Assembly (NCBI GenBank): GCA_028280225.1
Contig: JANQMF010000191.1
Location: forward strand, 1-33,095
DNA from: Pseudomonadales bacterium
Lineage (GTDB): Bacteria > Pseudomonadota > Gammaproteobacteria > Pseudomonadales > Azotimanducaceae
Direction: 5' to 3'
DNA length: 33,095 nucleotides
Below the pieces are notes generated by a model, which was not told the origin of the DNA, did not search any database, and saw nothing but the letters and a program-made list of their open reading frames with translations. Below, in pieces: positions 5,722 to 33,095 of the stretch; the first letter of the stretch is position 1; each line of letters starts with the position of its first letter. The position numbers and the translations under genes were made by a program.

Positions 5722-6695
5722 TGGGGTTGCGGATACCGGCCGTTTTGCACACACCCCGGGTCGACAACGACACGCACCGGTTGCTGACCGAAATGGCAGC
5801 AACCCATGCGCCACCTCTGTACGAGCAACCGGTGGCACAGGCGCGGCAGGCACTTAAAGCCGTCACCGCGCGATATGACTTAGCTCCCCTTGAAGTGGCC
5901 GCGGTGATGGAACACCGGATCACCGGTAACAACGATTACGCGGTCCCGGTGCGGATCTACCAACCCCACGTCAAGGCAGGAACGCAAGCCAATCCCCTGG
6001 TCTATTTCCACGGCGGCGGCTGGGCACTGGGTGACCTGGATACGCACCACAACCTGTGCCGTTATCTTTGCGCGCGCGCAGGTCGGCTGGTCATCAGTGT
6101 GGACTACCGGCTGGCTCCGGAGCACCCCTTTCCGGCAGGTTTGCAAGATTGTCTTACGGTGCTGGGTTGGCTCCCGGGGAATTTGCATACGCTTACCGCA
6201 AAATACAATGACCTTGTGGTTATGGGCGACAGTGCCGGGGGTAACCTGGCTGCCGTGGTCTCCCAGATTGCCCGTTCAGACCCGGATATCAACATAGACC
6301 GCCAGATTCTTTTGTACCCCAGCGTGGATATGAACGACAGTGACCGTTACCCCTCCCGCGACTTATTCGGCGGCGGCGAATACTTTTTGGGGCTGGCGGA
6401 TGTCGCCTGGCTCAAGGGGATGTATCTCTCTGACTCCGCAGCCCCCCTGGATGCGCGGATTTCGCCCATCCACGCGCAAGACTTATCTGATCTTCCCCGG
6501 GCTTTAGTGATCACCGCCGGCTATGACCTGCTCCGGGATGAGGGTATTGAATATGCCCACCGCTTGGATCAGGCCGGCAATCAGGTCGAGTATGCTAACT
6601 TTCCCGGTACCATCCACGGTTTTTGTTCCTTCGCCGGTGCGCTAAGCGCCGGGCAAACAGCCCTGGATCAGGTCTGCAACTGGCTGCTGGCCTAG
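5721..6695 (+). CDS. Alpha/beta hydrolase, hormone-sensitive-lipase family esterase
   Basis: A 324-residue esterase of the HSL (family IV) type. The oxyanion-hole motif HGGGW is at 97-101, the nucleophile elbow GDSAGG at 169-174 (S171), and the likely acid and base are D269 and H299 (IHGF). These enzymes cleave short-chain carboxylic esters. No signal peptide is visible, so it should act in the cytoplasm. The start codon shares a base with the receptor's stop (TGATG), giving translational coupling. The pairing suggests that the imported compound or a derivative is an ester; this is inference. Confidence 0.9.
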   Translation: MGLRIPAVLHTPRVDNDTHRLLTEMAATHAPPLYEQPVAQARQALKAVTARYDLAPLEVAAVMEHRITGNNDYAVPVRIYQPHVKAGTQANPLVYFHGGGWALGDLDTHHNLCRYLCARAGRLVISVDYRLAPEHPFPAGLQDCLTVLGWLPGNLHTLTAKYNDLVVMGDSAGGNLAAVVSQIARSDPDINIDRQILLYPSVDMNDSDRYPSRDLFGGGEYFLGLADVAWLKGMYLSDSAAPLDARISPIHAQDLSDLPRALVITAGYDLLRDEGIEYAHRLDQAGNQVEYANFPGTIHGFCSFAGALSAGQTALDQVCNWLLA

Positions 6696-6779
6696 CCCGC
6701 TCCAGCGGACCAGCCCACGTCCAACTTGGACTCCGCTAGATTCGATGTCACAATCCAGCGGTGATCCGGGAGAATTGTT

Positions 6780-9035
6780 ATGGCCAAGTCCAACGCTGAA
6801 TGGAAGTCTACCGCCTGCATCCTGTGTGCCCTGAACTGTGGGGTTAAGGTCCAACTGAACGAAGGCGGCACGCAAATCATGCGCACCAAGGGTGATGAAG
6901 ACCATCCTGCATCTCAAGGTTATTTGTGCAACAAGGCATCACGGCTGAACTTCTACCAGAATCGGGACGACCGTCTGCACACGCCAATGAAGCGCAATGC
7001 GGATGGCGGTTACGACGCCATCGATTGGGATACCGCCATCAGCGAAATTGCCGCTAAATTAGGTGCTATCCGGGACGAGCACGGTGGTGACAAAATCTTC
7101 TACTATGGCGGGGGTGGCCAGGGTAATCACCTACCCGGCGCTTATGCCAGCACCACCCTGGGCAATCTTGGGGTGCGGTACCGGTCAAACGCGCTGGCCC
7201 AGGAAAAAACCGGAGAATTCTGGGTGGCTCAACGCATGTTTGGCGGGTACAACCACGCCGATTTTGAACATGCCCAGGTGATCATCTTTTTAGGCAAAAA
7301 CCCCTGGCAATCCCACGGTTTTCATCGCGCCCGGGCGGAAATCCGCGACATGGCCAAAGATCCCAACCGCACACTGATTGTCATCGATCCTAAACGCACC
7401 GAAACCGCGGACCTGGCGGATATCCACTTAGCGGTTAAGGTAGGGCGGGATGCTTGGCTGTTGGCGGGTATGGTGGCCACCATCATCCAGGAAGGGTTGC
7501 AGGACAAAGCCTTTATTCTGGAGCATACCAAGGGTTTTGGTGCGGTAGCCAAGGTATTTGGTCAAGTCGACATTGCTGACTGCGCCGCCAAGGCAGGTAT
7601 TGAAGAAGCGGTTATTCGCGCCACTGCCCGAACCATTGCCGGTGCAAGCAGCGTTGCGGTGTTTGAAGACCTTGGCGTGCAAATGAACCGCCACTCAACC
7701 CTGGTCAGCTATCTGCAACGTCTGACCTGGACCCTGACCGGCAATTTTGCCAAACCCGGGACCCACTACACCGTTAACGGTCTGGGCAAAATGGGTTCAG
7801 GCCGGGAAGGCGGCACAAGCCCTGTGTCAGGCGGCCGGATTATCGACGGGCTGGTGCCCGCCCACACCATCCCGGATGAAATTCTCACCCATCACCCCAA
7901 CCGTTACCGCGCCATGATCATCGAGTCGGGCAATCCCGTTCACTCCCTGCCGGACAGCCCAAAATGGCGGGAAGCCATGCGCGCCCTGGATTGTAGTGTG
8001 GTCATCGATATTGCCATGACCGAAACCGCCCAGCAGGCAGACTACGTGCTGCCTGCCACTACCCAGTTTGAAAAAGCGGAAGCCACCTTTTTTAACTTTG
8101 AATTCCCGGAAAATTACTTCCACGTCAGACCCCCGCTGTTTGCCCCGCCCGAGGGGGTATTGGACGAGGCGGAAATTCACGCCCGCCTGGCCGGGGCCTT
8201 GTCCGCCATTCCCCAAGGATTGGAAGATGAGCTGAATGCCGCCTTGGCTGACGGGGGCCGGGCCGCTTTCCGGGACCTGGTATTTGCCAAACTGGCCGAG
8301 GACCCAACCCTGAGCCGCATTGCGCCCGTGCTGTTGTACCGGACCCTGGGCAAAACACTACCCCCGGGTATGCAAAATGCGGCGGCGGTATGGGCTATTT
8401 GCCACCAGCATGCCATGGCCAGCCGGACTACCGTGGAAGCCGCGGGCATTGCCGGAGAAGGCATGGACCTGGGGGAAAATTTATTTGACGCTATTCTGCA
8501 AGGACCCAGCGCGGTGATCATGAGCCGGGAAGATTGGCCGGATGTCTGGCAGCGGGCCCCCGGCGGCGTGCTCAACTTTGAGCTGGCCGACCTGCTTGAC
8601 GCGGCGGCTGATTTGAATGACGAAAATCCCCGGGAAGCCAACGACGAGTATCCGTTTCTGCTCTCCGCCGGCGAGCGGCGGGACTTTACCGCCAACACCA
8701 TCATTCGCAACCCGGCCTGGCGGCGCAAAGACAAGCAGGGTGCCTTGTACATCAACCCCGAAGATGCGGCACGCCTGAATCTCGGTGACGGCTCCACCGC
8801 GCAAATCACCACCCAACGGGGGGCTATGCAGGTGGTAGTGGAAACCAACGACCGTATGCAGCGGGGCCATATCTCGCTGCCCAACGGCCTTGGGCTGGTC
8901 TATCCGGATGAAAACGGCGAGCCGATAACCACCGGCACATCACCCAATGAACTCACTTCGGCACATATGGCGGATAAATTTGTCGGCACACCCTGGCACA
9001 AATCCGTGCCGGTCAGGATTGAGGCAGTGGAATAA
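6780..9035 (+). CDS. Molybdopterin-dependent oxidoreductase with [4Fe-4S] site
   Basis: A 751-residue member of the DMSO reductase superfamily. Four cysteines for a [4Fe-4S] cluster are at C13, C16, C20 and C50. The central molybdopterin-binding fold is present (for example VIDPKRTETADLAD) and the C-terminal dinucleotide-binding domain begins near residue 640. No Tat signal is seen, so it is probably cytoplasmic. In the segment where formate dehydrogenases and nitrate reductases carry the Cys or Sec metal ligand (about 130-147 here, around Q141) there is no Cys or Sec. The reaction therefore cannot be assigned. GGGAG precedes ATG 6780. No partner subunit gene is adjacent. Confidence 0.88.
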   Translation: MAKSNAEWKSTACILCALNCGVKVQLNEGGTQIMRTKGDEDHPASQGYLCNKASRLNFYQNRDDRLHTPMKRNADGGYDAIDWDTAISEIAAKLGAIRDEHGGDKIFYYGGGGQGNHLPGAYASTTLGNLGVRYRSNALAQEKTGEFWVAQRMFGGYNHADFEHAQVIIFLGKNPWQSHGFHRARAEIRDMAKDPNRTLIVIDPKRTETADLADIHLAVKVGRDAWLLAGMVATIIQEGLQDKAFILEHTKGFGAVAKVFGQVDIADCAAKAGIEEAVIRATARTIAGASSVAVFEDLGVQMNRHSTLVSYLQRLTWTLTGNFAKPGTHYTVNGLGKMGSGREGGTSPVSGGRIIDGLVPAHTIPDEILTHHPNRYRAMIIESGNPVHSLPDSPKWREAMRALDCSVVIDIAMTETAQQADYVLPATTQFEKAEATFFNFEFPENYFHVRPPLFAPPEGVLDEAEIHARLAGALSAIPQGLEDELNAALADGGRAAFRDLVFAKLAEDPTLSRIAPVLLYRTLGKTLPPGMQNAAAVWAICHQHAMASRTTVEAAGIAGEGMDLGENLFDAILQGPSAVIMSREDWPDVWQRAPGGVLNFELADLLDAAADLNDENPREANDEYPFLLSAGERRDFTANTIIRNPAWRRKDKQGALYINPEDAARLNLGDGSTAQITTQRGAMQVVVETNDRMQRGHISLPNGLGLVYPDENGEPITTGTSPNELTSAHMADKFVGTPWHKSVPVRIEAVE

Positions 9036-10373: not shown

Positions 10374-11330
10374 ATGTCAGAAGTCCACGCCGAAACACAG
10401 GGATGGATTAACGCTGACGACGTCCGCCGTGGTGCCGACTGGGTGGCGGGGTACACCCTGCTCAGCCTTATCCCCAGAAAATACGCCCACCGTTTATTTG
10501 TCCGCCTCCGCACGCAAATGGCCGGCACACGGGAAGGTCTGGACCACAACCTCAAACAGGTTGTCAACAACGCTCTGGGTGAGGTCCCGCCGGCAAGGTT
10601 AACGGAAATTGGACGCCAGCGGTTCCGCATCAGCTCAGAGAACCGATGGGCAACCTGGAGCGCCAGCCGCAGGGCGGACTGGCCGGTGCGCACCGAAGTC
10701 GCGGGCCTTGAGCATGCCACCGCCGCCTTGTCGGCAGGCCGCGGCATAGTATTTTGGGGTATGTCCTTTTGCGGCACCCTGTTTCCGAAAATTGCGCTGC
10801 AACGCGCAGGCATCAAGCTGGTGCAACTGTCCACCACGGACCACGCGGTAGGCTTTCCACTCACCAAGTTCCGCTGGCGTGTTCTGGCACCCGCCTATTG
10901 CCTGGCGGAAAACCGCTATCTTGAGCGCAGAATCTATATGCCCGATAACGGCAGCACGGCCTATCTGAAAGATATTGGCAAGCTGCTGAAGCACCGGGGC
11001 GCCATCTGGATCGCTGCGGAACGGCGTAATGCAACCAACCCGGTATCAGCCAATTTTCTGGGACGGCAAGCACCCTTCCCTCCCGGAGGGCCGGTACTGG
11101 CTTTCCGCAACAACGCTGCGCTTATCCCCGCTTACACCGAGCGCTTAGACACATTTCACTACCGGCTTACTCTGCTGCCCCCTATCGAACGGGTACCGGA
11201 TCTTTCGGTTAAGGCGGCCACCCAAGCAGCCACCGAGGTATTTGCTCAACACTTGGAAAAACAGGTGCTGGCTGATCCCGGCAGTTGGGATTGGAATTCC
11301 TGGGTCAAACACCTGCCGCCTCGGGGATAA
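10374..11330 (+). CDS. LpxL/HtrB-like lysophospholipid acyltransferase homologue, catalytic motif not conserved
   Basis: A 318-residue protein with the overall layout of the LpxL/HtrB acyltransferases that add secondary acyl chains to lipid A: an N-terminal segment with a hydrophobic stretch, a central core and a PGSWDW-like ending. In this family the active site is H-x4-D/E in a G-x-H-F-G-N-W-E context. The corresponding stretch here reads GIVFWGMSFCGTLF, with Ser in place of His and no acidic residue at the right spacing. It may be inactive, may use another mechanism, or may only bind lipids. It is probably co-transcribed with the reductase-like gene and lies upstream of plcP. Confidence 0.62.
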   Translation: MSEVHAETQGWINADDVRRGADWVAGYTLLSLIPRKYAHRLFVRLRTQMAGTREGLDHNLKQVVNNALGEVPPARLTEIGRQRFRISSENRWATWSASRRADWPVRTEVAGLEHATAALSAGRGIVFWGMSFCGTLFPKIALQRAGIKLVQLSTTDHAVGFPLTKFRWRVLAPAYCLAENRYLERRIYMPDNGSTAYLKDIGKLLKHRGAIWIAAERRNATNPVSANFLGRQAPFPPGGPVLAFRNNAALIPAYTERLDTFHYRLTLLPPIERVPDLSVKAATQAATEVFAQHLEKQVLADPGSWDWNSWVKHLPPRG

Positions 11331-11442
11331 ACCCTTACCCGTTCGCACAACAAGCCACCCAACGGACAGGCAAGCTACACGGCTTAAATATCCGCCAAAA
11401 GATCCCTTCCTTCAGACATAACCGTTAGAATCAGAATAGCGG

Positions 11443-11482
11443 CTTTAACAAAAAGTTCATTAAAACGTAACCTGAATGGAAC
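11443..11482 (+). promoter_or_regulatory. Tandem Pho-box-like array upstream of plcP
   Basis: Four 7-bp half-sites lie at an exact 11-bp period: CTTTAAC (11443), AGTTCAT (11454), ACGTAAC (11465) and ATGGAAC (11476), with mostly A/T-rich 4-bp spacers. The PhoB consensus half-site is CTGTCAT, with CTGTAAC a frequent variant; individual matches here are 4 to 6 of 7. TATAAA at 11499-11504 could be the -10 element. It suggests induction of plcP-agt by phosphate starvation. Confidence 0.6.
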
Positions 11483-11524
11483 AAAGGACAATTAGTGTTA
11501 TAAAAACAGACAGAGATTAAAAGT

Positions 11525-12322
11525 TTGAAAGAGATCGAAGACCGGCAGAAAACCTACTACCGAACCATCTTCCTTTCCGATATCCATCTTGGCACCAGGG
11601 GCTGCAAAGCTGAAAGTCTGGTCAACTTCCTCCAGCACCACACCTGTGACCGGCTGGTGTTAGTCGGCGACATTATAGACGGATGGCGCATGAAGTCCGG
11701 GATTTACTGGCCTCAAGCACATACCAACGTGCTGCGGCGCTTTCTGACCCTGACCAAGCGCGGCACCGAAGTCATTTATGTCACCGGCAATCATGACGAA
11801 TTTCTGCGCCGTTACAGCGGCATTGAACTTGGCAATCTGAAAATTGTGGATAAGTTTGTTCACCGCACCGCCGACGACCGTTCCTGTCTCGTGGTACACG
11901 GCGACGAATTTGATGTGGTTACACGTTATCACCGCTGGATTGCCTGGTTGGGTGATATCGGCTATACCTTACTTCTGGAGTTAAACCGCGCTTTCAACCA
12001 TATTCGTTCTAAGCTGGGTTATGGCTACTGGTCTCTTTCAGCCTGGGTTAAACACCGGGTTAAACGCGCGGTTAATTACATCGGCGATTTCGAAACCGCG
12101 GTGGTCAAGTCCAGCGAGGGCGGTTACGACGCGGTCATTTGCGGCCACATCCACCACGCGGAAATACGCGACATAAACGGGGTGTGCTATATGAATTGTG
12201 GTGATTGGGTGGAAAGCTGCACCGCTCTGGTGGAAAACAGCCACGGGCGTTTCGAAATTATCCACTGGGAAGAGCAGCGCGCACAAAAAATCAGCGAACT
12301 TCCACGCAGAATCAGCGCATGA
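11525..12322 (+). CDS. plcP: PlcP-type metallophosphoesterase (phospholipase C for lipid remodelling)
   Basis: A 265-residue calcineurin-like phosphoesterase with the dimetal site intact: D19-x-H21, G48-D49, G88-N89-H90-D91, H125-G126 and G207-H208-x-H210. This subfamily is often labelled UDP-2,3-diacylglucosamine hydrolase. In Sinorhizobium and marine heterotrophs the PlcP members are known to cleave phospholipids to diacylglycerol when phosphate is scarce. PlcP is preferred over LpxH because the stop overlaps the start of an Agt-type glycosyltransferase, the known partner, and because a Pho-box array lies upstream. No signal peptide; it should act at the cytoplasmic face of the inner membrane. 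The start appears to be TTG at 11525, as no ATG occurs before the DIH motif. Confidence 0.82.
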   Translation: MKEIEDRQKTYYRTIFLSDIHLGTRGCKAESLVNFLQHHTCDRLVLVGDIIDGWRMKSGIYWPQAHTNVLRRFLTLTKRGTEVIYVTGNHDEFLRRYSGIELGNLKIVDKFVHRTADDRSCLVVHGDEFDVVTRYHRWIAWLGDIGYTLLLELNRAFNHIRSKLGYGYWSLSAWVKHRVKRAVNYIGDFETAVVKSSEGGYDAVICGHIHHAEIRDINGVCYMNCGDWVESCTALVENSHGRFEIIHWEEQRAQKISELPRRISA

Positions 12323-13392
12323 GCGGCCAGTCCCCAACCAAACGCCTGTTGATCGTCACCGACGCCTGGCTGCCGCAGACCAACGGCGTGGTCACCACCT
12401 GGCAGCAGATTGTTTCCCGGCTACCCGGTTTTGGTATTGAGCCCTTTGTCATTGAACCCGCTCAATTTCGCACCATGCCCATGCCCGGCTACGGGGAAAT
12501 AAAACTTGCCATCAATCCGTGGAAGCTGGGCCAGATGGCGGTGGAGGTTGACCCGGACGCGGTGCATATCGTTACCGAAGGCCCCCTGGGCGTAGCAGCA
12601 AGGCAATGGTGCCTGAGCACCAACAGGCCTTTTACAACATCGGTACACACCAAGTTTCCCGAATATATTGCAGACCGCTCACCCCTGTCACCATCCGCGG
12701 GTTATGCTTTTTTGCGTTGGTTTCACCGCCACGCAACCACGGTGCTGGCCATGAGCCCTTCCCACGCGGAAGAACTGGGCAGCCGGGGCATTAACAACAT
12801 ATCCGTATGGTTGGGGGGTGTGGACACCCAGCGCTTCCATCCGGCAAGCCACACCCGGCGGCCGCGCCCTCAGCTACTGTATGTGGGCCGGGTTGCCATA
12901 GAAAAGAACCTTCGCGACTTTTTGCAGTTGGATATCGAGGCTGACAAAGTGATTGTCGGCGATGGACCGGCACGGGTCAGTCTGCAAAAAGAATTTCCCG
13001 ACGCACAATGGATGGGATATCAATTTGGTGATGCCCTCACCCAGGCTTATGCCCAGGCTGATGTGCTGGTCTTTCCCAGCAAAACCGATACCTATGGGCT
13101 GGTGATGCTAGAAGCCAATGCCTGCGGCACACCAGTTGCCGCTTACAATGTCACAGGGCCAAAGGATGTCATCAGACACGGGGTCAACGGCTATCTGGAC
13201 AGCAATATCAAACAAGCCATATTCGGCGCGTTAAAGCTTTCCCGGGAAAACTGCCGCCAATTCGCCATGACCCGCAACTGGGATGCCACCACTGCCCAAT
13301 TCACCTCGTATATAACCGGTGGTCAGGATCAACGCGCTATGCTGGCAACAGGCAATGCCCTCAACCGCTTTGTCGAGGCCCGCCTGCCCTGA
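12319..13392 (+). CDS. agt: GT4-type glycosyltransferase, probably diacylglycerol glycosyltransferase (Agt-like)
   Basis: A 357-residue GT-B glycosyltransferase. The N-terminal acceptor domain begins LLIVTDAWLPQTNGV; the C-terminal donor domain contains YVGRVAIEKN, VGDGPAR and the PSKTDTYGLVMLEANACG motif, followed by VTGPKDVI. In marine bacteria Agt uses UDP-glucose or UDP-glucuronate and PlcP-derived diacylglycerol to make glycolipids that replace phospholipids. The frame runs back to 12205, but ATG 12319 overlaps the plcP stop (ATGA), which implies coupled translation. The 3' end overlaps the convergent hydroxylase gene by 64 bp. The sugar donor cannot be told from sequence. Confidence 0.8.
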   Translation: MSGQSPTKRLLIVTDAWLPQTNGVVTTWQQIVSRLPGFGIEPFVIEPAQFRTMPMPGYGEIKLAINPWKLGQMAVEVDPDAVHIVTEGPLGVAARQWCLSTNRPFTTSVHTKFPEYIADRSPLSPSAGYAFLRWFHRHATTVLAMSPSHAEELGSRGINNISVWLGGVDTQRFHPASHTRRPRPQLLYVGRVAIEKNLRDFLQLDIEADKVIVGDGPARVSLQKEFPDAQWMGYQFGDALTQAYAQADVLVFPSKTDTYGLVMLEANACGTPVAAYNVTGPKDVIRHGVNGYLDSNIKQAIFGALKLSRENCRQFAMTRNWDATTAQFTSYITGGQDQRAMLATGNALNRFVEARLP

Positions 13393-14246
13393 TGGGGCCA
13401 ATCCGGCGCGCAGAACAGATGGCGCACCCTGGTTTGCCAATCTTCCGCTTGCTGTAAGTCCCGCCACAGGGCAGTGTATTCATGCAATACCGCCTCCCGT
13501 AGTGAAACATCCCCCAATGGCCGGGTCAGGCCATAGCGGCAGGGATCGTCCTCGGCTTCGCTGACAAAGGTACCGAAGAGGCGATCCCAGATGATCAAAA
13601 CGCCACCGTGGTTGGCATCTAAGTATCTTGGGTTACGGGCATGATGAACCCGGTGGTGGGAAGGCGTGTTAAAGAAAAATTCGATCACCTTCGGCAGCCG
13701 GCCAAAGAAAGGTGAGTGCAACCAGAATTGATAAAACAGACTGATCACCATGACAATCAGGATCATGCCCGCGTCAAATCCCAGCAGCGGAATCCACAGC
13801 CAAAACGACATGCGGGTAAGGCGCTCCCCCACCCCGGCCCGGATCGCGGTAGCCAGATTAAGGTTGTTGGCGGAATGATGGTTAACATGCCCCGCCCACA
13901 GTATTCGCACCTGATGGCTTAGGCGATGCCACCAGTAAAAGGCAAAGTCGTCCAGCAGGAACAGTAACAACCAGGCCCACCATTGCCGCTCAACCACATC
14001 ACGCAATGGCGAGATATCATGCAGCAAAATCATTGCAAAAACCGCCAGTTGGCGTGGCAACCACTCAACCGCTGCCGCCACCAGCATAAGGCCAAAGGAT
14101 GTGCGTACCTCAGCAAGATTATAGGTATGTACCCTGCGGCGGTGGGCAACCCAAGCCTCCACGGCGATGGCCACCATAAAGACACCAAAGCCGAAGACAA
14201 TCAGCTCATCAGCGACCACTTCTTCGAACCAGGCGCCCATATCCAT
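13329..14246 (-). CDS. Sterol desaturase/fatty acid hydroxylase superfamily membrane protein
   Basis: A 305-residue integral membrane di-iron hydroxylase with the eight-histidine pattern: H107-x3-H111, H120-x2-H123-H124, H177 and H198-x2-H201-H202. Several hydrophobic segments span the first 100 residues and 150-175. Known relatives hydroxylate fatty acyl chains, sterols, alkylglycerols or ornithine lipids (OlsE). Its ATG overlaps the stop of the upstream aminotransferase-fusion gene (TGATG), so the two products are made together, presumably from the Pho-box promoter near 16.6 kb. An acyl or head group of a phosphorus-free lipid is the inferred substrate. The C-terminal 60 residues are basic and unlike the rest of the family. 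Confidence 0.87.
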   Translation of the reverse strand: MDMGAWFEEVVADELIVFGFGVFMVAIAVEAWVAHRRRVHTYNLAEVRTSFGLMLVAAAVEWLPRQLAVFAMILLHDISPLRDVVERQWWAWLLLFLLDDFAFYWWHRLSHQVRILWAGHVNHHSANNLNLATAIRAGVGERLTRMSFWLWIPLLGFDAGMILIVMVISLFYQFWLHSPFFGRLPKVIEFFFNTPSHHRVHHARNPRYLDANHGGVLIIWDRLFGTFVSEAEDDPCRYGLTRPLGDVSLREAVLHEYTALWRDLQQAEDWQTRVRHLFCAPDWPHQGRRASTKRLRALPVASIAR

Positions 14247-16453
14247 CAGTTGCGGCTGGGCAAGGCACTTGGGAGATAGGCCTTAATATCCGTAAACGGG
14301 TCGGTGATGAGTTTAACAAACCAAACCAACGCATTGCGTATGCCATACTGGAATATCAGACGGATCACCCGCCCGGTGATAACTATGACGGTAAAGATCA
14401 GCCAGTGTTCAGCGGTTAATGCCGCCATCTCTTCCAGGGCTTGCCGGCTGAACGAGGGTAACATGACCGCATGCACCACGGGGATCAGGATAAAACCCAG
14501 CACAATTACGGTTTTACTGCGTGTATCAAACCCCAGCAAAAGCTGTTCTTTATCATGACAGGGCGGCTCGATCAGCGCATGCCCCGCCTGGCGGAGAAAT
14601 AGCGCCCCCAGCCCCAGCCACATGGCCAGGGACAAATCGAAGAAGATCAACACATAACAAACGATAAAGACGCTTGAACTGATTAAGTGAAAGAACTGGT
14701 TTGTTCTGTCAGAGTGTGAAGCAATGTGGTCATCATGTTTTCGACGCATGACCTCTGCATAAAATGTGCGTATGGGTTCAGGCAACGCAACGATGCTCTT
14801 TATCATATCTTTTACCAATCGTTGTTGAATGTGTTTGCTTTGGTTGGGGTGTTCCGTGGGGTCCAGCCACCATCCATCCTGCAACATATTGACGGCTGCA
14901 CTCTTGATCTTTGCACGCAACTCGACAAAATCTTTTTCCGTAAAGTCCAGGCTGATCAGACAGCGGCCGGTTCCCACCCAGCTTAAGTTGATACCACTGG
15001 CACGCAGGTAGTACTGCAACATCCAGTTGTAGCGGCTGGGTTGGGTAAATTCAAAGGTAAAAATGGTACTTAACGAGACTACCTTCAGCGGCAGACCGGC
15101 CCGCGCCAGATCTTCGTTTACCTGTTCCGCCCACAGCCGTGTGCGCCGGGCAACGGTTTCGTACAGGTGATCAGCCTCAGCGGACTCCACCCATTTGAGG
15201 AATTCGTGCATGGCACCCATGGCATGCGGGTAACCGGAAAATGTCCCCACCACGTAGGATATGCGCATGGGCCGGTCCGGATCGAACCTGCGCATCAACC
15301 CACTACGGCCGCACACCACGCCAATAGGTAAACCCGCCGCGAGGGTCTTGCCGTAGACCACCATGTCCGCCTGCACCCCATAAAACGCCTGCGCGCCCCC
15401 TGGAGCGAGGCGAAAGCCGCTGTAAACCTCATCGAATATCAGCGGGATCTGACACTCGGTACACACCTGCCGAAGGGCGCTTAACCACTGTCCATATTGA
15501 TCTGTGGCACCATCCGCCTTGCGCACGTCACTGGACAACAATACCGCATCGTTAGGCGGCGGCGAATTCGGATTGAACGACTGAACCGGATTCACCATTA
15601 CCCCGGCCACTTCCCGGGCCCGGGCGCGAATAGCCCGCAGCGAAGTAACATTCATTTCTTTTAAGACCAGGCAGTCACCAATTGACCGCTCACTGCCCAG
15701 ACCCGGTTGTACACCATCCCACCAGCCGTGATAAGAACCAGAAAATGTCACAATTTTCTCGCGCCGGGTGTTAAACCGTGCCAGACGCACCGCAGCCATA
15801 ACTGCCTCGGTTCCGCTGACGTGGTACGACACCTCATCCTGCCCGGATATACGCTTTAAGCGGCGGGTGTTGTCCAACACCAGTTCGTGCATGGGCCCCA
15901 GCACCGGACCCAACTGCTCCACGCGCTCAGCTCCGGCTTTTAACCATTGTTTGTAGCGCTCGTACCCCGCGACATTCACCCCATAAGAACCGCTGACATC
16001 CAACAGCGCATTACCATCCAGGTCAATAATCCGCGGCCCCTCGGTCTGGTTGGCCACCACGCCGACATTCATCTGCTCGCGCATATAACGGGCAAAGGGA
16101 AAGGGTACCCGATTGGCATCAAAGAAACGCAAATCACTTAAGCTGCCTTGTAAATCCTTAATGGTTTGGTGATACGTATCGCTGACACCGGTAAGCGCCC
16201 GGCGCAATTCAGAAAATCCACGTTTGCGTTTTTCCACCCATTCGTCCGGCGCACCATCCGCGGAAAAGAAGTTGTCCTCGTTGTAATCATTGGTGCCAAC
16301 CAGGTGGGACAGCCAGCGTGAAGCCCGGGGGGTAATGGCCAGCGCAGGCAGGGTCAGCAATCTGTTGATAGTTCTATATATGTGCACAACAAGAACAATG
16401 GTGGCAAGGGCAACACATATATAAAGAATCACAGGAGGGATTGTGGTGAACAT
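14246..16453 (-). CDS. Membrane-anchored class III aminotransferase fused to C-terminal membrane domain (Mpo1-like motifs)
   Basis: A 735-residue fusion. Residues 7-26 form an N-terminal transmembrane helix. Residues about 110-530 are a glutamate-1-semialdehyde-aminomutase-like PLP enzyme with SGTEAV (213-218), YHGWWDG (241-247), DEVYSGFR (341-348) and the PLP lysine K369 in YGKTLAAGLP. Residues about 575-735 hold three or four hydrophobic segments and the motifs H580-x4-N585-x3-H589 and RQAGHALIEP (H625, E629). These resemble the DUF962/Mpo1 family, whose yeast member is an iron dioxygenase acting on 2-hydroxy fatty acids. It is not HemL: the length, anchor and fusion all differ. It is coupled to the hydroxylase and preceded by a Pho-box array, so an amino-lipid substrate is my inference. 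Confidence 0.8.
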   Translation of the reverse strand: MFTTIPPVILYICVALATIVLVVHIYRTINRLLTLPALAITPRASRWLSHLVGTNDYNEDNFFSADGAPDEWVEKRKRGFSELRRALTGVSDTYHQTIKDLQGSLSDLRFFDANRVPFPFARYMREQMNVGVVANQTEGPRIIDLDGNALLDVSGSYGVNVAGYERYKQWLKAGAERVEQLGPVLGPMHELVLDNTRRLKRISGQDEVSYHVSGTEAVMAAVRLARFNTRREKIVTFSGSYHGWWDGVQPGLGSERSIGDCLVLKEMNVTSLRAIRARAREVAGVMVNPVQSFNPNSPPPNDAVLLSSDVRKADGATDQYGQWLSALRQVCTECQIPLIFDEVYSGFRLAPGGAQAFYGVQADMVVYGKTLAAGLPIGVVCGRSGLMRRFDPDRPMRISYVVGTFSGYPHAMGAMHEFLKWVESAEADHLYETVARRTRLWAEQVNEDLARAGLPLKVVSLSTIFTFEFTQPSRYNWMLQYYLRASGINLSWVGTGRCLISLDFTEKDFVELRAKIKSAAVNMLQDGWWLDPTEHPNQSKHIQQRLVKDMIKSIVALPEPIRTFYAEVMRRKHDDHIASHSDRTNQFFHLISSSVFIVCYVLIFFDLSLAMWLGLGALFLRQAGHALIEPPCHDKEQLLLGFDTRSKTVIVLGFILIPVVHAVMLPSFSRQALEEMAALTAEHWLIFTVIVITGRVIRLIFQYGIRNALVWFVKLITDPFTDIKAYLPSALPSRN

Positions 16454-16558
16454 ATTACGCCCCTATCTTGTGAACTTAACTTAAAGCGGTGAACTATTCC
16501 CGAACGCTGCCGCCAACAACGTTCTCTATCTGACTGGTATAGCAGGATTTCCCTTAAA

Positions 16559-16572
16559 CTGTGGGTCCACAG
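16559..16572. repeat. Short inverted repeat between promoter and aminotransferase start
   Basis: The arms CTGTGG and CCACAG are separated by two bases. It lies in the 5' leader of the aminotransferase transcript, downstream of the Pho-box array. It could be a small hairpin or a second operator; it has no U-run. Confidence 0.3.
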
Positions 16573-16600
16573 CCAGCCGCACGCAAAATAAAATGTAATT

Positions 16601-16629
16601 ATGTCAGATAGGTGACATTTTGGTTATGT
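16601..16629 (-). promoter_or_regulatory. Pho-box-like array upstream of the aminotransferase/hydroxylase operon
   Basis: Read on the minus strand, half-sites ACATAAC (16629-16623), ATGTCAC (16618-16612) and CTGACAT (16607-16601) follow each other at an exact 11-bp period. The last two together match the PhoB consensus at 14 of 18 positions. TATTTT (16590-16585) begins ten bases further on, the usual distance of the -10 element in PhoB-activated promoters. The same bases also form a palindrome (ATGTCA, six bases, TGACAT), so a dimeric repressor is the alternative reading. Confidence 0.62.
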
Positions 16630-16733
16630 ATTATTACAACCACGTTTTCTTAGACGCGAGCAACCGCACCTTTCACCGATGCGGTTGCGCGCCCAAACGT
16701 ACTTTTTTAGCTGAACAGGACAGTATCTAACGG

Positions 16734-18008
16734 TTAGTCGTCGTAATATATATTCCTTTTGTTAGCCCGCCCCGCCGCGGTGGACATACAGTTGGCGTAG
16801 AAGGTTGTGGTTGCGGGCCAGTCGGAAAAAATACCCAGCACTCCCACCTTGCGGTTTAGCGCATGAATGGTGCGCAGGATGTCGCCGTCGTTGTCCAATA
16901 CATCAGCGGTCGTGGCGTAGTAGAAACCGCCGCCTCCCGGGTTGAGCTGACCTGAACGCTCGGTGGTCCAGGTGATGATATCCAGACCCGCCTGTTTTGC
17001 CGCCTTGGCATATTGAGACGGCACGATGTGGCCGCGCCGGTTGGTCTGCAGAAGCATAAACATGGGCGGTGCAATGATCTGAACACCATCCGCCACCACC
17101 TGGGACATACTCGGTTCCAGGGCATCAACCGCTTCCCGGGAAGTTACATCGGTGGTGTATCGGCTGTCCAGATATACCGCCTGACGGCCAAAATCCGGGT
17201 TTGTGTTCACCCAATACAGTACATCCTCGTAGTTAAACGATTGGGCCCACACCCGGTGTGGAGACACTCCCGCCTGCCGATATTCGTCGATCATCTGTTG
17301 GGCATAGTCTTCCTGGGTGTAGTCACCCTCATAAGGCATTTCTACAGCGGGCGACTTCAGTTCCGGCGTCATACCGGTGCCCAGTGCTTTAAACAGTTCA
17401 ATGCTCTCCGCATGGGTCATCAGCGTGCCTCGCATGCCGCCGCTATAAAGATCCGTGCGGAAGTTGGCGGTACCGTCCAGATACTCTTCTATCGAAGTGG
17501 CTTCCCGATTGGCAGCATCCATCTTACCGTTCAGGGTTCTAAACTCCGCCAGTGTAATATCGCTGGTACAGCAGGTGATTTCACTGGCGTTCGCAAGCTT
17601 GCCATCACTATCAAAGGCCGGCGGCACACTGCATTTTTCCGCCAGAGGGGTGAGGAGAATGTCGGTTGTGGTGTGCAGGTCGCATTGCGCATGACGACAA
17701 ACCAGTTCGCGGTCCCCGGTAAAGGTCACATCACATTCAAGTATGCCGGCCCCCATACGCGCTGCGGCTTCGTAAGACTCACGGGTGTGTTCCGGGAACT
17801 GCAGAGGGGCACCCCGGTGACCTATCGAAAAGTCACTCTTCCTATATTTGTGGATACGATCAGCACAGGCTTTCAGCCTGTGTTTTAAGCGCGTTTCGCT
17901 CATCTGATCAACCAACCAGAACGGTCGGGGGCCAAGTTGTACCGGATCTGCCGCGGCGCTGACCGCAAGCAACGCCACAACCACGCCGGTAAGGCTGTGT
18001 TTCATCAT
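16734..18008 (-). CDS. Secreted glycerophosphodiester phosphodiesterase family protein
   Basis: A 424-residue GDPD with an N-terminal signal peptide (hydrophobic 8-20, cleavage near SAAA). The TIM-barrel active-site residues are H64-R65 in IGHRGAP, E73, E91-x-D93 and H106. These enzymes hydrolyse glycerophosphodiesters released from phospholipids to glycerol-3-phosphate and an alcohol. At 424 residues it is longer than the 250-350 of bacterial GlpQ/UgpQ; insertions near residues 120-190 contain four cysteines that may form disulfides, fitting an exported protein. AAGGA precedes the first of two adjacent ATG codons. It diverges from the receptor/phytase operon, and a weaker Pho-box-like array lies in the shared upstream region. 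Confidence 0.85.
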
Positions 18009-18127
18009 ATCTAACGTCCTTTATGTGTCACTATTATGTCTATGTGTCTGAATCCCCCGGAATCGATACCGGGGTTGTACCTTAGGTACCCCGGATTGCA
18101 GACCTGTTGCGTTTCGATTGCATAACG

Positions 18128-18156
18128 GTGAAGTTTAAATGACATCTTTATTAAGC
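18128..18156 (-). promoter_or_regulatory. Weaker Pho-box-like array upstream of the glycerophosphodiesterase gene
   Basis: On the minus strand, half-sites GCTTAAT (18156), ATGTCAT (18145) and ACTTCAC (18134) sit at an 11-bp period with A/T-rich spacers. ATGTCAT matches the consensus half-site at 6 of 7 positions, the flanking ones at 4 of 7. No convincing -10 element was found at the expected place. Confidence 0.38.
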
Positions 18157-18217
18157 GGCGCAACAAAAACGGATATGACAGAAGCGCGCCTTACGGGTAA
18201 AAACCACCTTCACAACT

Positions 18218-18262
18218 GTGTAACAAAAGTCTAATCATTTTGTAACGCACACTGCCTAATGT
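18218..18262 (+). promoter_or_regulatory. Pho-box-like array and promoter of the TonB receptor/phytase operon
   Basis: Half-sites GTGTAAC (18218), GTCTAAT (18229) and TTGTAAC (18240) lie at an exact 11-bp period, with spacers AAAA and CATT. A possible -10 element, CCTAAT (18255-18260), begins eight bases after the array. Transcription would then begin near 18267, leaving a leader of about 25 bases with GGAGAG before the GTG start. Confidence 0.62.
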
Positions 18263-18291
18263 GCGCGCTTCATTTATTCAGGAGAGTCGCG

Positions 18292-21081
18292 GTGCGCATA
18301 TTCATTGGAGCACTATTATTTCTATTGGCTTTGCCGGCTTTCGGCGGCCGTCTGCAGGGGTACGTTTCCACAGCGTCCGGCCAGGGGTATGTGGGTGGTG
18401 CTGATGTCCGTATCCCCGCCCTAGGCATCCAGACCAGTTCCCGGTCTGACGGGCGCTTTTCATTCAACAACGTCCCTGAAGGCAATCACGTTGTACAAGT
18501 AAACTATCTGGGTTACCAGACCCAACAGAAGAATGTGACTGTGGGCGCCGGCACCACCAACGTGGACGTGGTTCTCAGCGCCACCCTGGAAGAAATTGTC
18601 GTTTACGGTCAGGCCGGCAGCACTGTGTCCGCGCTGAACCAGCAACGCGCCCGGGACAATATCTCCTCCATCGTATCCAGCGACGACTTTGGACAACTGC
18701 CCGATGCCAACCTGAGCGAAGCCTTGCAACGGGTGCCCGGCGTATTTCTGGAGCGCGACCAGGGTGAGGGCCGCTTTGTCGGCATCCGCGGTATTGATCC
18801 GGGTTTGAATGTGACCAGCATTAACGGTATTTCCATTCCCGCCCCGGAAAGCGGCACCCGGGCCGTTGCCCTGGATGTGATCCCCTCGGAGCTGCTTGAA
18901 TCCCTGGAAGTCAGCAAATCTTTTACCCCGGATATGGATCCTGACGGTTTGGGTGGGGCCATTAACGTTAAGAGCTTATCGGGCTTCGACCGCAAGGGCA
19001 GAACCCTGTCCCTTAAGGCGGAAGCGTCGCGCAACGAACTGGAAGAAGAAACCAGTCCCCGCCTGGCAGCAACTTTCACCGATACCCTCAGCCTGGGCAG
19101 CGGCGAGGACAACTTTGCCATCGCCGCAGCGGTGTCCTGGTTTGACCGGGAATTTGGCTCGGAAAATATCGAAACCGACGGCGGCTGGCCCCTGGATCTG
19201 GAAACGGTGGACAACACCGAATTTCGCGGCGCGGAAGAAATTGAACAGCGCAACTATGTCATCAACCGGGAGCGTTTTGGCGCCGCGGTGAACCTGGACT
19301 TTCGACCCACCGACACCTCGGAATATTTTATCCGCGCGCTGTACAGCAAATTCGAAGACCAGGAATTCCGCACCCGCGAACAGTTTAAGTTTGACGACGG
19401 TGAAGCTGTGCTGGGCACAGCCACGTCAGCAACCTGGGATGACGCCACTTTAGAACGGGAATTAAAAGACCGTTTCGAATCCCAGGAGATTCTGTCCGTC
19501 ACCGTGGGGGGTCAAAACATTTTTGATCAATGGACCCTGGACTACACCTACGGCTACGCCATTTCAGAAGAAGACGAGCCCGGACGCATCGACACCAATT
19601 TTGTCATTGAAGGCGTACAGCTGGGTTATACCGGCATTGGTGATCAACCCGGCGTTTTTGCCGACCCCGCCACCCGGGATCCACAGAACTATGCACTGGA
19701 TGAAATTGTCACCGAAGATAATTTTACCGAAGACGAACAGCACAGCTTTGCCATTGACCTGACCCGGGAGCTGAACGCCCGGCAATTCAGCGGCTACATC
19801 AAGGCAGGGGCCAAAGTCCGGCGCCGGGAAAAAAACAATGATCTGCAATCGGTGGTTTATGACGGTTTCCCCGGTGACCCTACGCTGACACCATTTGTGG
19901 GCAGTGTTGACTATGATCTCAACAGCTTTGGTCCCGGCTTGAGCGAAGACGCCATCGAGGCCTTTGTTGCCCAGAACATCAGCGCGTTTGAGATTGATGC
20001 GGACGATACCCTGGCCAGTTCCCTGGGGGGTGACTATGCGTTAAACGAAGATGTTGATGCCGTGTACATCATGGCCCGCATGGACTTCGACAAACTTCGC
20101 CTGGTTTATGGTCTGCGCTGGGAGCAAACCGATTTTGATACCCAAGGCCAGCGCATCGTCTTTGACGATGTCAGCGGTGATGGATCTCCGGTTGCCCGGC
20201 CGGTTTCTTTTCGTGACGACTACGACTACCTGTTGCCCAGTATCAATCTGCGCTACGCCATCAACGACGACCTGTTTCTTCGCGCAGCCTACTACGAGAC
20301 GTTTGCGCGACCGGCCTTTGAACAACTGTCACCGGGTGGGGAAATTGAATTTGAAGTAGACGACGGGGCCAGCGAATTTTCGGCGGAGCTAGGTAACCCC
20401 GGCCTGGAACCTCTGGAAGCCCAGCATGTGGACATTGCTGTGGAGTGGTACGACCAGGGCATCGGCTTGCTGTCCGCCGGGGTATTCTACAAAAACCTGG
20501 ACAACTTTATTGTGTTGGCGGATACCGCTGACCTCATTGACCTCAGCCAGTTTGTCGGCAATGTGGTCATCGACGATGCTGAGGTTATTCAGCCCATCAA
20601 CGGCGACTCCGCAGACCTGCTGGGTATTGAACTGGCTTGGATCAAAAAATTCAGCAGCCTGCCCGCACCCTGGAATGGCTTGCTGGTCAGTGCTAACGCA
20701 ACCTTTACCGACAGCGAAGCGGATTTGGCCCTGCGCGATTCTTCCATCGACTTACCCCGCCAATCTGATAGAGTATTTAACCTGACCCTGGGTTACGAAA
20801 GTGAACGCTTTTCCGCACGCATTGCCGGTACCTACAAAAGCGACGCGTTGCTGGGCCTGGAAGAACCCGACAACGCAAATTTCGACGTCTACCAGGATGA
20901 ACATCTTCAGTTGGACCTGAGCATTAAGTTCCATATTAGTCAAAACTGGCTGGTCTATTTTGACGCTAACAACTTAACCGACGAGCCCTTTTACGCCTAC
21001 TTTGACCGCGCCCGGTACAACGCTCAGTACGAAGAGTACGGCCGCACTTACGCATTGGGAGTGCAGTTGCGTGCACAATAA
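18292..21081 (+). CDS. TonB-dependent receptor with carboxypeptidase-regulatory-like domain (phytate-linked)
   Basis: A 929-residue outer-membrane receptor. A signal peptide (MRIFIGALLFLLALPAFG) is followed by a carboxypeptidase-regulatory-like beta-sandwich (about 20-95), then a segment like a TonB box (LEEIVVYGQ), a plug (SEALQRVPGVFLERDQ; VGIRGIDPG) and a barrel. The frame is open back to ATG 18259. GTG 18292 is chosen because GGAGAG lies upstream, the signal peptide starts cleanly there, and ATG 18259 falls inside the likely -10 region. It overlaps the phytase gene by 11 bases. A TonB receptor next to a beta-propeller phytase is a known pairing in aquatic bacteria, so uptake of phytate or its products is likely. 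Confidence 0.9.
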   Translation: MRIFIGALLFLLALPAFGGRLQGYVSTASGQGYVGGADVRIPALGIQTSSRSDGRFSFNNVPEGNHVVQVNYLGYQTQQKNVTVGAGTTNVDVVLSATLEEIVVYGQAGSTVSALNQQRARDNISSIVSSDDFGQLPDANLSEALQRVPGVFLERDQGEGRFVGIRGIDPGLNVTSINGISIPAPESGTRAVALDVIPSELLESLEVSKSFTPDMDPDGLGGAINVKSLSGFDRKGRTLSLKAEASRNELEEETSPRLAATFTDTLSLGSGEDNFAIAAAVSWFDREFGSENIETDGGWPLDLETVDNTEFRGAEEIEQRNYVINRERFGAAVNLDFRPTDTSEYFIRALYSKFEDQEFRTREQFKFDDGEAVLGTATSATWDDATLERELKDRFESQEILSVTVGGQNIFDQWTLDYTYGYAISEEDEPGRIDTNFVIEGVQLGYTGIGDQPGVFADPATRDPQNYALDEIVTEDNFTEDEQHSFAIDLTRELNARQFSGYIKAGAKVRRREKNNDLQSVVYDGFPGDPTLTPFVGSVDYDLNSFGPGLSEDAIEAFVAQNISAFEIDADDTLASSLGGDYALNEDVDAVYIMARMDFDKLRLVYGLRWEQTDFDTQGQRIVFDDVSGDGSPVARPVSFRDDYDYLLPSINLRYAINDDLFLRAAYYETFARPAFEQLSPGGEIEFEVDDGASEFSAELGNPGLEPLEAQHVDIAVEWYDQGIGLLSAGVFYKNLDNFIVLADTADLIDLSQFVGNVVIDDAEVIQPINGDSADLLGIELAWIKKFSSLPAPWNGLLVSANATFTDSEADLALRDSSIDLPRQSDRVFNLTLGYESERFSARIAGTYKSDALLGLEEPDNANFDVYQDEHLQLDLSIKFHISQNWLVYFDANNLTDEPFYAYFDRARYNAQYEEYGRTYALGVQLRAQ

Positions 21082-22099
21082 CCTGTTATGGGTGGGCATA
21101 CTTGTTGTGGTGGGGTGTACGCAGATATTACCCGTCTACGGGCCCATTCAGGTCACGGCAGAGGTGGAAACCGCACCGGTGCCCAGCGCTGACGATGCCG
21201 CTGACGATCCGGCCATATGGATTCACCCTGAAGAGCCCGGCAAGAGTCTGGTCATCGGCACTGACAAACGCTCCGGATTACTGGCTTATGATCTTCGCGG
21301 GAACCAACTTCAATACCTGCCCGTGGGCCAGTTGAATAACATCGATCTGCGCCACCATCCCTGGGGGATGCAGCAGATGAGCCTGATAGCCGCGACCCAG
21401 CGAGGCCCTTCGCGGATTGTCCTGTTTACCCTGGACCATACCAACCTCAAGGTGACCCCCGTGGCAGTGCATACCACCGAACTGCAATATCCCTACGGTG
21501 TCTGCATGTACCAGGACATCCGGGGGGTTCCCCATGTGATTGCCAACAGCAAAGACGGCGCCTTTGTCATGTACGCCGTGGCCCGGGACTATTCGCTGAC
21601 CCCCGTCCGCCGTTGGCACACCGCTTCTCAGCCCGAGGGCTGTGTTGCTGACGACGCCCGGCAGGTGGTCTATTTTGGCGAAGAGGAACAAGGCATCTGG
21701 CGCCTGAACCTGACCCCCGGGTCCACTGGGGAAGTTAAGCTGGTGGATTCGGTCAACAGCGGTCGGTTGACCGCTGATGTGGAGGGGATGGCATTGTACT
21801 TTGGCGACCAACAAACCCTGCTGGTGGTATCCAGTCAGGGTGACAACAGTTTTGCCGTTTACGATACCGCTAACGACCAATACCTCTATTCTTTCCACGT
21901 GGTTTCCAACAAGCACATTGATGGCGTGACCGAAACCGACGGTCTGGACATTGTCTCCAATCCGTTGCCGGGATTCCCGCGGGGATTGTTAGTGGTTCAG
22001 GACGATGACAACCGGCAACCCAGGGCCAACCAGAATTTTAAACTGGTGTCCTGGTCAAATGTGGAACAGGCGGCTGACAGCCAGGAAGCGGCAAACTAG
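21071..22099 (+). CDS. Beta-propeller phytase, lipoprotein
   Basis: A 342-residue 3-phytase of the beta-propeller family, which strips phosphate from myo-inositol hexakisphosphate with calcium. Signature stretches are DDPAIWIHP (45-53), VIGTDKRSGLLAYDL, PEGCVADD, DVEGMALY and the VSSQGDNSFAVYD segment. With GTG 21071 as start the N-terminus is a lipoprotein signal with lipobox V13-V14-G15-C16, so the enzyme is membrane-anchored in the periplasm or at the surface. GGGAG lies upstream within the receptor gene. The frame is open to ATG 21002, but that start would place the hydrophobic signal internally. It overlaps the receptor gene and shares its Pho-box promoter. Confidence 0.92.
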   Translation: MHNNLLWVGILVVVGCTQILPVYGPIQVTAEVETAPVPSADDAADDPAIWIHPEEPGKSLVIGTDKRSGLLAYDLRGNQLQYLPVGQLNNIDLRHHPWGMQQMSLIAATQRGPSRIVLFTLDHTNLKVTPVAVHTTELQYPYGVCMYQDIRGVPHVIANSKDGAFVMYAVARDYSLTPVRRWHTASQPEGCVADDARQVVYFGEEEQGIWRLNLTPGSTGEVKLVDSVNSGRLTADVEGMALYFGDQQTLLVVSSQGDNSFAVYDTANDQYLYSFHVVSNKHIDGVTETDGLDIVSNPLPGFPRGLLVVQDDDNRQPRANQNFKLVSWSNVEQAADSQEAAN

Positions 22100-24810: not shown

Positions 24811-25364
24811 TGAACAAATACAAACTGCCCACCGAGGACGCCATTGCTGAAGCCGGATTCAGGCTGTTAAGTAAAAATCCCGGAGCCAAGCTCGAAGAGA
24901 TTGCCAAGGAAGCGGGCATTACCAGGGCCACCCTGCACCGGTATTTTCCGTCCCGCAACAAGCTGGTCACAACCTTGGCCATGAAAGCCATTAAAGAGAT
25001 GGATGCTGCGGTTGAACAAGCCTGCCAACACTCGCAAACGGCGGCTGAAGTGCTGCGGGACAGCCTGACCGCCATGATCCCCCTGGGCGCCCGGCACGGT
25101 TTTCTGGGACACGAGGATCTCCAGCAGGACGCTACCGTGCAGCGGGAGTTTTTGCGCCTCGAAGAAGAAACCCGGGAATGGATTAACGCGGCAAAAAAAG
25201 AGGGTGCCATCGACAATACGGTCCCCACGGAGTGGTGCGTACGTACGTTTGACAATCTGTTGTACACTGCCTGGGAGTGCGTCTGGCACGAAGAGCTGAC
25301 CACCAGGCAGGCTGCGGAACTCGCCTGGCGCACCTTGTCCCGGGGATTGAGGGCAAGCGGGTAA
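24810..25364 (+). CDS. TetR/AcrR-family transcriptional regulator
   Basis: A 184-residue repressor. The DNA-binding helix-turn-helix is at about 25-47 (LEEIAKEAGITRATLHRYFPS), followed by a divergent ligand-binding domain. The start lies directly on a palindrome and lacks a ribosome-binding site, suggesting a nearly leaderless message. It is followed by a hydroxylase gene that starts five bases after its stop, so it probably controls that gene and itself. The ligand is unknown. Confidence 0.88.
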   Translation: MNKYKLPTEDAIAEAGFRLLSKNPGAKLEEIAKEAGITRATLHRYFPSRNKLVTTLAMKAIKEMDAAVEQACQHSQTAAEVLRDSLTAMIPLGARHGFLGHEDLQQDATVQREFLRLEEETREWINAAKKEGAIDNTVPTEWCVRTFDNLLYTAWECVWHEELTTRQAAELAWRTLSRGLRASG

Positions 25365-25369
25365 TTGCC

Positions 25370-32834: not shown

Positions 32835-33095
32835 CACTTTTTCCGTTGCATTAGTTCGTAGCATTCCCTGTCGCGTTCACCAGTTTAAGGGACTTTGTGA
32901 GGTTCCCGCCGCGGCAGCCTAGCGCTTTTAGCCCGGTTGCCGGTCACCAATTGTCTGTTCTGTGACCGCTGCACACTGTTTTTTGCAACCGGGTCGCAAA
33001 CCCTACGGGCCAACTACCTTGGTGCGCTCGCCCCCATTTCACCGTGTTGTATCTCACCCTGTATGTCGGCCATCGGGGGTTTGCTCACCGGTAAC
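32835..33095. other. Right-edge stretch without a recognised gene
   Basis: It holds the leader of the TauD-carrier gene. Beyond that I see no coding frame, RNA gene or convincing promoter before the window ends. Confidence 0.5.

Follow-up and report, generated by a model that had tools for sequence, protein, structure and literature searches.

The window analysed here is a stretch of 33,095 nucleotides from a Pseudomonadales bacterium of the Azotimanducaceae (assembly GCA_028280225.1, contig JANQMF010000191.1). It carries a gene that fuses an N-terminal membrane anchor, a class III aminotransferase (AT) and a C-terminal Mpo1-like membrane domain. The gene lies behind a Pho-box-like site, overlaps a hydroxylase gene at its 3' end and faces plcP and an agt-like gene. 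Comparison with relatives makes a strong case that the AT and the Mpo1-like protein form the core of a conserved set of lipid genes with Pho association. The features of the locus are as follows.

11525..12322 (+): plcP, metallophosphoesterase, PlcP-type phospholipase C (PF12850/PF00149)
12319..13392 (+): agt, Agt-like family 4 glycosyltransferase (GT4; PF13692/PF00534/PF13439)
13329..14246 (−): di-iron fatty-acid-hydroxylase-family protein, 305 aa (PF04116, E = 5.8e-29)
14246..16453 (−): fusion of N-terminal membrane anchor, class III AT and C-terminal Mpo1-like membrane domain, 735 aa (PF00202, E = 1.4e-38)
14879..16081 (−): AT domain of the fusion, aa 125–525; closest solved relative MycA AMT
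14264..14776 (−): Mpo1-like membrane domain of the fusion, aa 560–730 (PF06127, E = 0.0041)
16601..16618 (−): Pho-box-like site, ~148 bp upstream of the fusion gene
16734..18008 (−): glycerophosphodiester phosphodiesterase (GDPD; PF03009, 2.9e-18), in a context of phosphate scavenging
18259..21081 (+): TonB-dependent receptor (PF00593/PF07715), possibly for organophosphate uptake
21002..22099 (+): phytase (PF02333, 2.6e-72), in a context of phosphate scavenging

Several elements of a preliminary description of this DNA were borne out. The stop of the AT gene and the start of the hydroxylase gene overlap in TGATG (within AACTGATGG), a Pho-box match stands upstream of the fusion, and coordinates and strands confirm that the AT–hydroxylase pair converges on plcP–agt, with the tails of agt and the hydroxylase gene overlapping at 13329–13392. 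plcP and agt themselves overlap in ATGA and, by domains and order, form a PlcP–Agt gene pair. The GDPD, TonB receptor and phytase genes beyond the Pho box provide a phosphate-scavenging setting. No RNA element reached the Rfam gathering threshold in window positions 11300–18300.

The fusion protein has hydrophobic stretches in its N-terminal anchor (residues 1–30) and near its C terminus (585–621, 645–669 and 683–703), in line with the earlier view of a membrane-anchored class III aminotransferase with an extra membrane domain. By sequence, the closest solved relative of the AT was MycA AMT (PDB 6kfm; phmmer 4e-50; best glutamate-1-semialdehyde aminomutase (GSAM), 1.8e-31), and 6kfm also ranked first in Foldseek (7e-27) with the predicted model of the fusion (pLDDT 82). 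K369, which we take to be the catalytic lysine, and D341 and S213-G214-T215, presumably the pyridoxal phosphate (PLP) site of class III enzymes, were invariant across 45 aligned AT sequences; on this assignment of residue roles, the AT has both the lysine and the PLP site. The alignment (A1) comprised the window and 44 of the 80 loci described below; L041 was omitted (stop codon in the matched range), L044 was shortened, and other loci were left out by choice as truncated, as near-duplicates or to limit size. An ordinary HemL (GSAM) was rejected, with 173 bits against an NCBIfam TIGR00713 cut-off of 527.3. No polyketide synthase (PKS), non-ribosomal peptide synthetase (NRPS) or carrier domain was found in the AT protein or the adjacent genes scanned; a TauD-type oxygenase fused to a phosphopantetheine-binding domain (31596–32864, −) lies ~15 kb from the AT. 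Part of the text of PMC3870968 describes MycA AMT as transferring an amine from glutamine to a β-ketothioester. Because this enzyme is closest by both sequence and fold, the similarity favours an AT that would install an amine on a lipid-like carbonyl.

Scanned alone, the C-terminal domain matched the Mpo1-like family PF06127 at E = 0.0041 with 17.7 bits, below the gathering score of 24, and stand-alone relatives scored 19.6, 21.1 and 20.6 bits, also under 24. The fused domain aligns with 35 stand-alone Mpo1-like neighbours of AT relatives (alignment A2: 35 of 49 such genes plus five fused pieces). PF06127 matched 35 of the 40 rows at E ≤ 0.01 (best E 7.8e-6), and the rows without such a match are likely the five truncated fused ones. 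H, RQ.GH, EP..D, KE and TDP are invariant. From these similarities, the extra membrane domain appears to be a weak but recognisable Mpo1-like domain. Yeast Mpo1 oxidises 2-hydroxy fatty acids in an iron-dependent reaction.

A scan of 84,980 species, each represented by one genome, returned 516 AT relatives; the 80 best were retained as loci. The AT was fused as in the window in 24 and split in 56, a scoring that includes a few truncated contigs. Split loci carried a phosphatidylserine-decarboxylase (PSD) paralogue in 55 of 56 cases and a stand-alone Mpo1-like gene (MPO) in 54 of 56, both counted at ≥45% identity over half the query; at the same threshold, a separate PSD or MPO match occurred in 0/24 fused loci. 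The fused and split forms of AT and MPO are reciprocal, and the fused form makes up one side of a single branch (support 100/100) in a tree of the 45 sequences. PSD genes numbered two in each of 14 split-form genomes and one in each of 6 fused-form genomes, the window's genome also giving one match; because of this difference, the linked PSD appears to be a dedicated paralogue. The conserved partner of the AT is the Mpo1-like domain, not the hydroxylase.

The AT family is spread over several phyla. Record titles such as 'Klebsiella pneumoniae' and 'Bordetella parapertussis' among the relatives belong to environmental metagenome-assembled genomes and were taken as mislabelled, and where no Pfam assignment is given, neighbour clusters received labels such as ABC or ACS by eye. 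Some neighbours recur locally. In Zoogloea relatives, a DUF1854 protein recurs at 8 loci (L062 11020–11487) and one labelled by eye as ABC-transporter-like at 7; both stand beside the module and are perhaps lineage-specific. A DUF2784 protein lies directly upstream of the fused AT at two loci (L026 3999–4442 and L031 7313–7759), and in L138 a UDP-glucose/GDP-mannose dehydrogenase-family gene (6695–7861) directly follows MPO and could supply a uronic acid as sugar in that lineage.

The preliminary description had instead proposed that the AT and the hydroxylase form a two-enzyme pathway. The TGATG overlap and the intact histidine motifs of the hydroxylase (HRLSH, HVNHH and HHRVHH) are compatible with such a pair. 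So is the distribution of hydroxylase homologues (E ≤ 1e-30) among 117 related genomes, 9 of which, the window's included, carry the AT (E ≤ 1e-60): they occurred in 7 of the 8 other AT genomes versus 52 of 108 without AT, mostly at 35–41% identity, a difference that also weighs against our own reading. By the same thresholds, 52 of the 60 relatives with a hydroxylase homologue lack the AT. At the loci themselves the pair dissolved. The hydroxylase was found at 0/80 related AT loci and 0/7 kin loci, and two fused loci of the same genus (L117 and L118) have plcP directly after the AT, in the hydroxylase's place. At the closest AT found (L021, 68% identity), the contig ends inside the gene, so that its downstream neighbour is not visible. 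Conversely, no AT, plcP, agt, PSD or MPO was present in the fetched flanks of 11 hydroxylase-homologue loci (11 of the 12 best matches outside the window's genome; the one omitted lies at a G069 contig end). On these counts the hydroxylase was rejected as a conserved partner of the AT, and a two-enzyme pair is, as a conserved pair, largely refuted; as a pathway it strikes us as extremely improbable.

Since the hydroxylase is missing at all other AT loci examined, the AT–hydroxylase pair is, within what was examined, confined to the window's genome, and the hydroxylase is probably a lineage-specific tail of the transcript that is not conserved with the module, judging by gene neighbourhoods. 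The refuting observation named in the preliminary description, homologues consistently without lipid or phosphate genes around them, did not hold for the AT. Near two of the 11 hydroxylase homologues lacking the AT module there are phoU-like genes (L125 16466–17125 and L129 4562–5221). An identity of the hydroxylase as ornithine lipid hydroxylase OlsE was rejected (NCBIfam NF052566, 53.7 bits against a cut-off of 475). The window holds a second PF04116 hydroxylase (25277–26245, +; 9.3e-32) with 37% identity to the first over ~250 aa, and a third homologue lies elsewhere in the same genome (G000:C190).

The preliminary description had also called for a survey of co-occurrence with PlcP–Agt, and here the expected link emerged. 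A PlcP-like homologue (≥45% identity, half query) lay near the AT in 18 of the 80 loci and an Agt-like homologue (≥40%, half query) in 39; one or the other was present at 42/80 loci (14/24 fused and 28/56 split) versus 0/11 hydroxylase control loci. A GT4 gene, its best match being one of three kinds, was within 2.6 kb of the AT at 78 of 104 loci, a set made up of the 80 and the fetched ones with at least one duplicate (L149 shares a contig with L015). In a sample of 397 genomes from the phylum, the AT (E ≤ 1e-80) occurred in 28 and PlcP (E ≤ 1e-50) in 173, with PlcP in 22/28 AT genomes versus 151/369 others (Fisher 1.0e-4) and, by genus, in 11/14 AT genera versus 85/218 others (p = 0.004).

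This glycosyltransferase linkage, together with the MycA similarity, raises the alternative that the AT turns a 3-oxoacyl into a β-amino acyl chain and that the resulting sphingolipid-like backbone is glycosylated by the GT4. The top match of the AT by sequence and fold does act on a β-ketothioester (PMC3870968), and a comparable lipid is on record, in that part of PMC6445935 describes a Pho-induced glycosphingolipid of Caulobacter made with two dedicated glycosyltransferases. Such a backbone route leaves the PSD unexplained, and no widely recurring ligase, carrier or N-acyltransferase was recognised among the neighbours, where an AMP-ligase-like cluster (by eye) appeared in 4 loci and most small clusters are unannotated. 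We regard it as improbable.

The AT loci of the genomes in which PlcP is missing have a feature of their own. At six of six, the gene directly after the AT is a GT4 whose N terminus carries a long extra part, and at five of these PSD and MPO come next in the same direction; the sixth stretch (L135) ends before that point. Such a GT4 was found at 0/12 loci fetched from PlcP-bearing genomes. Five of the six PlcP-less genomes come from one family, which leaves few independent cases. The extra part (~550 aa) may be a phosphoesterase that replaces PlcP; its resemblance to PHP phosphoesterases in certain motifs found no support in Pfam or PDB sequence searches, and we do not claim that identity. In L136–L140, from genomes without a PlcP match, the long-N-terminus GT4 genes lie between AT and PSD. 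A 962-aa open reading frame before the AT in L034 and one of 1142 aa in L087 contain GT4 domains only, and their long N termini may be spurious extensions.

The Pho box of the window (ATGTCACctatCTGACAT; 16601–16618, −) agrees at 12 of 14 repeat positions and is the only site of ≥12/14 in the 33 kb; when the 280-bp gap was shuffled 2000 times under a first-order Markov model, 6 shuffles reached 12/14. Over the whole window, matches with ≤3 mismatches showed no excess over chance (8 seen vs 6.7 expected). Across loci, sites of ≥11/14 were scored from −250 to +50 of the called start, starts being set mechanically. They preceded 31/83 AT, 21/44 PSD, 31/52 MPO, 29/57 Agt and 9/20 PlcP genes, compared with 0/15 methyltransferase (MT) genes, 62/482 other neighbour genes and ~4–7% of shuffled sequence. 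The relatedness of the loci, and the single promoter gap that often serves both PSD and AT, inflate these counts. On this enrichment, the module may be under PhoB control.

N-methyltransferases of two kinds accompany the AT, PmtA-like in 16/56 split loci and PEMT-type in 8/24 fused ones; a Sphingomonas parapaucimobilis plasmid has the order PSD-AT-MPO-MT, and neither plcP nor agt lies in the part displayed. A β-aminotransferase-like AT with a decarboxylase and N-methyltransferases could be taken to make a DGTA-type betaine lipid, with a β-alanine head group. DGTA is stated in part of PMC4796936 to be more abundant in the phosphorus-limited bacterial fraction, its synthesis in marine heterotrophic bacteria awaiting characterisation. 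With methyltransferases linked at so few loci, and with btaA, the presumed first enzyme, in only 6/22 carriers, we consider this very unlikely. BtaA (PF11899) had no match in the window's genome (G000) and was missing from 16 of the 22 AT genomes, and btaA lay near 4/24 fused loci; OlsB-type acyltransferases (PF13444) matched in 14/22, including G000 (2.4e-19), and gave none in 8/22. Because these genes are missing from many carriers, betaine lipids and, on a more mixed record, ornithine lipids were rejected as the general substrate or product. To our knowledge, the known ornithine-lipid, betaine-lipid and glycolipid pathways do not contain this AT–Mpo1-like gene set. The earlier statement that known phosphorus-free lipids need no such enzyme pair stands for the AT fusion, placed in a Pho-associated lipid gene set, and falls for the hydroxylase as its partner.

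The same enzymes could instead serve to dismantle phospholipid. In a head-group salvage, the AT would deaminate phosphatidylethanolamine or the phosphoethanolamine freed by PlcP, the PSD paralogue would supply that substrate from phosphatidylserine and MPO would oxidise the aldehyde. PSD, the PmtA-like enzyme and the AT would then all act on an amine head group. Many loci have PlcP and phosphate genes close by, and the PSD is a dedicated extra copy. Class III phospho-lyases do exist, and yet no entry so named was among the best 60 of 130 structure-sequence matches of the AT, whose closest solved relative installs an amine on an acyl chain; the frequent glycosyltransferase would also be left unexplained. 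Salvage is in our estimation unlikely.

The reading we prefer, at about even odds, is that the fusion represents, in the window, a Pho-controlled module (AT and MPO, plus PSD in the split form) that works with PlcP and GT4 to make a phosphorus-free, probably zwitterionic aminolipid. We infer the PhoB control, each reaction step and the product from what is observed: gene composition and its conservation, fusion and splitting, Pho-box enrichment and paralogue counts. Under phosphate starvation, PlcP would free diacylglycerol and GT4 would glycosylate it, steps known elsewhere. In the manner of MycA acting on a β-ketoacyl chain, the membrane-anchored AT would add an amino group to a lipid carbonyl. 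As a member of an iron oxygenase family, the Mpo1-like domain would oxidise the same lipid and may create that carbonyl; the PSD paralogue would remove a carboxyl from an amino-acid head group, and PmtA/PEMT-type enzymes would methylate the amine in some lineages. The product, a phosphorus-free and probably zwitterionic aminolipid, would replace phosphatidylethanolamine, and the hydroxylase of the window would be an optional later decoration. The product could possibly be a glycolipid that is aminated or N-methylated, DGTA, or an as yet unidentified aminolipid of starved bacteria. That the module makes a phosphorus-free aminolipid we hold with moderate confidence, and a nitrogen-containing phospholipid substitute, as first proposed, is plausible; confidence in the order and chemistry of the steps is weak.

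Several observations weigh against this reading. At the thresholds given, neither PlcP nor Agt was found at 28/56 split and 10/24 fused loci (some contigs end early), no GT4 lay in the stretch at 26/104, and some GT4 matches are weak (24–32% identity). Six of the 28 AT genomes, identified by eye, had no PlcP match at E ≤ 1e-50. The fused form comes without a dedicated PSD, and a methyltransferase is missing from most AT loci. The PF06127 match of the window's domain is under the Pfam cut-off, and a fold search of a stand-alone Mpo1-like model against the PDB gave no match (best E 0.65). Upstream of plcP in the window, no site exceeded 9/14, and the Pho-box counts are inflated as described.

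A few pathways account for what is known of lipid remodelling in phosphate-starved cells, namely PlcP–Agt glycolipids, BtaAB and Ols. Given a further gene set conserved in several phyla, this picture would lack a common membrane lipid or a common step. With slightly less than even confidence, we propose AT-MPO(-PSD-GT4) as an undescribed, widespread pathway to a phosphorus-free aminolipid, reaching from Pseudomonadota to Nitrospirota, Binatota and Rokubacteria in fused, split and collinear-operon forms, and with PlcP replaced in some lineages by a GT4 that has an extra N-terminal domain. Carriers include nitrifiers (Nitrospira), methanotrophs (Methylocapsa), Bradyrhizobium, Zoogloea and Sphingomonas, and the gene set offers a route into the open problems of unidentified aminolipids and bacterial DGTA synthesis. 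By titles and abstract beginnings among the matches listed, no publication described the AT-PSD-MPO set. Neither of the plcP papers PMC4796936 and PMC9239053 uses the word 'aminotransferase' in its main text, and 'aminotransferase', 'hydroxylase' and 'PlcP' are all absent from that of PMC6445935.

The module resembles four known systems in part. With the Caulobacter glycosphingolipid pathway (CcbF, Sgt1 and Sgt2), whose backbone, by contrast, is ceramide, it would share PhoB-regulated glycosyltransferases and a phosphorus-free lipid as product. Like MycA AMT, which acts on a lipid-like β-keto chain, the AT is a GSAM-like class III enzyme; MycA, however, is embedded in a PKS/NRPS line with a carrier-bound substrate, whereas the AT of the window stands alone without PKS/NRPS domains in the protein, is membrane-anchored and is fused or linked to the Mpo1-like domain. 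The Mpo1 2-hydroxy fatty acid dioxygenase family matches in the motif region H...N...H / GH...E.P, but module members have an extra conserved C-terminal half (KE..G, TDP..D), fell under the curated cut-off in the four scored singly and are linked or fused to an aminotransferase. Finally, plcP followed by an Agt-like GT4, with a Pho-box association, is shared with PlcP–Agt glycolipid remodelling in Phaeobacter, SAR11, Agrobacterium and Methylosinus and is present in the window; the window and its relatives add the AT, the Mpo1-like protein and, in the split form, a PSD paralogue.

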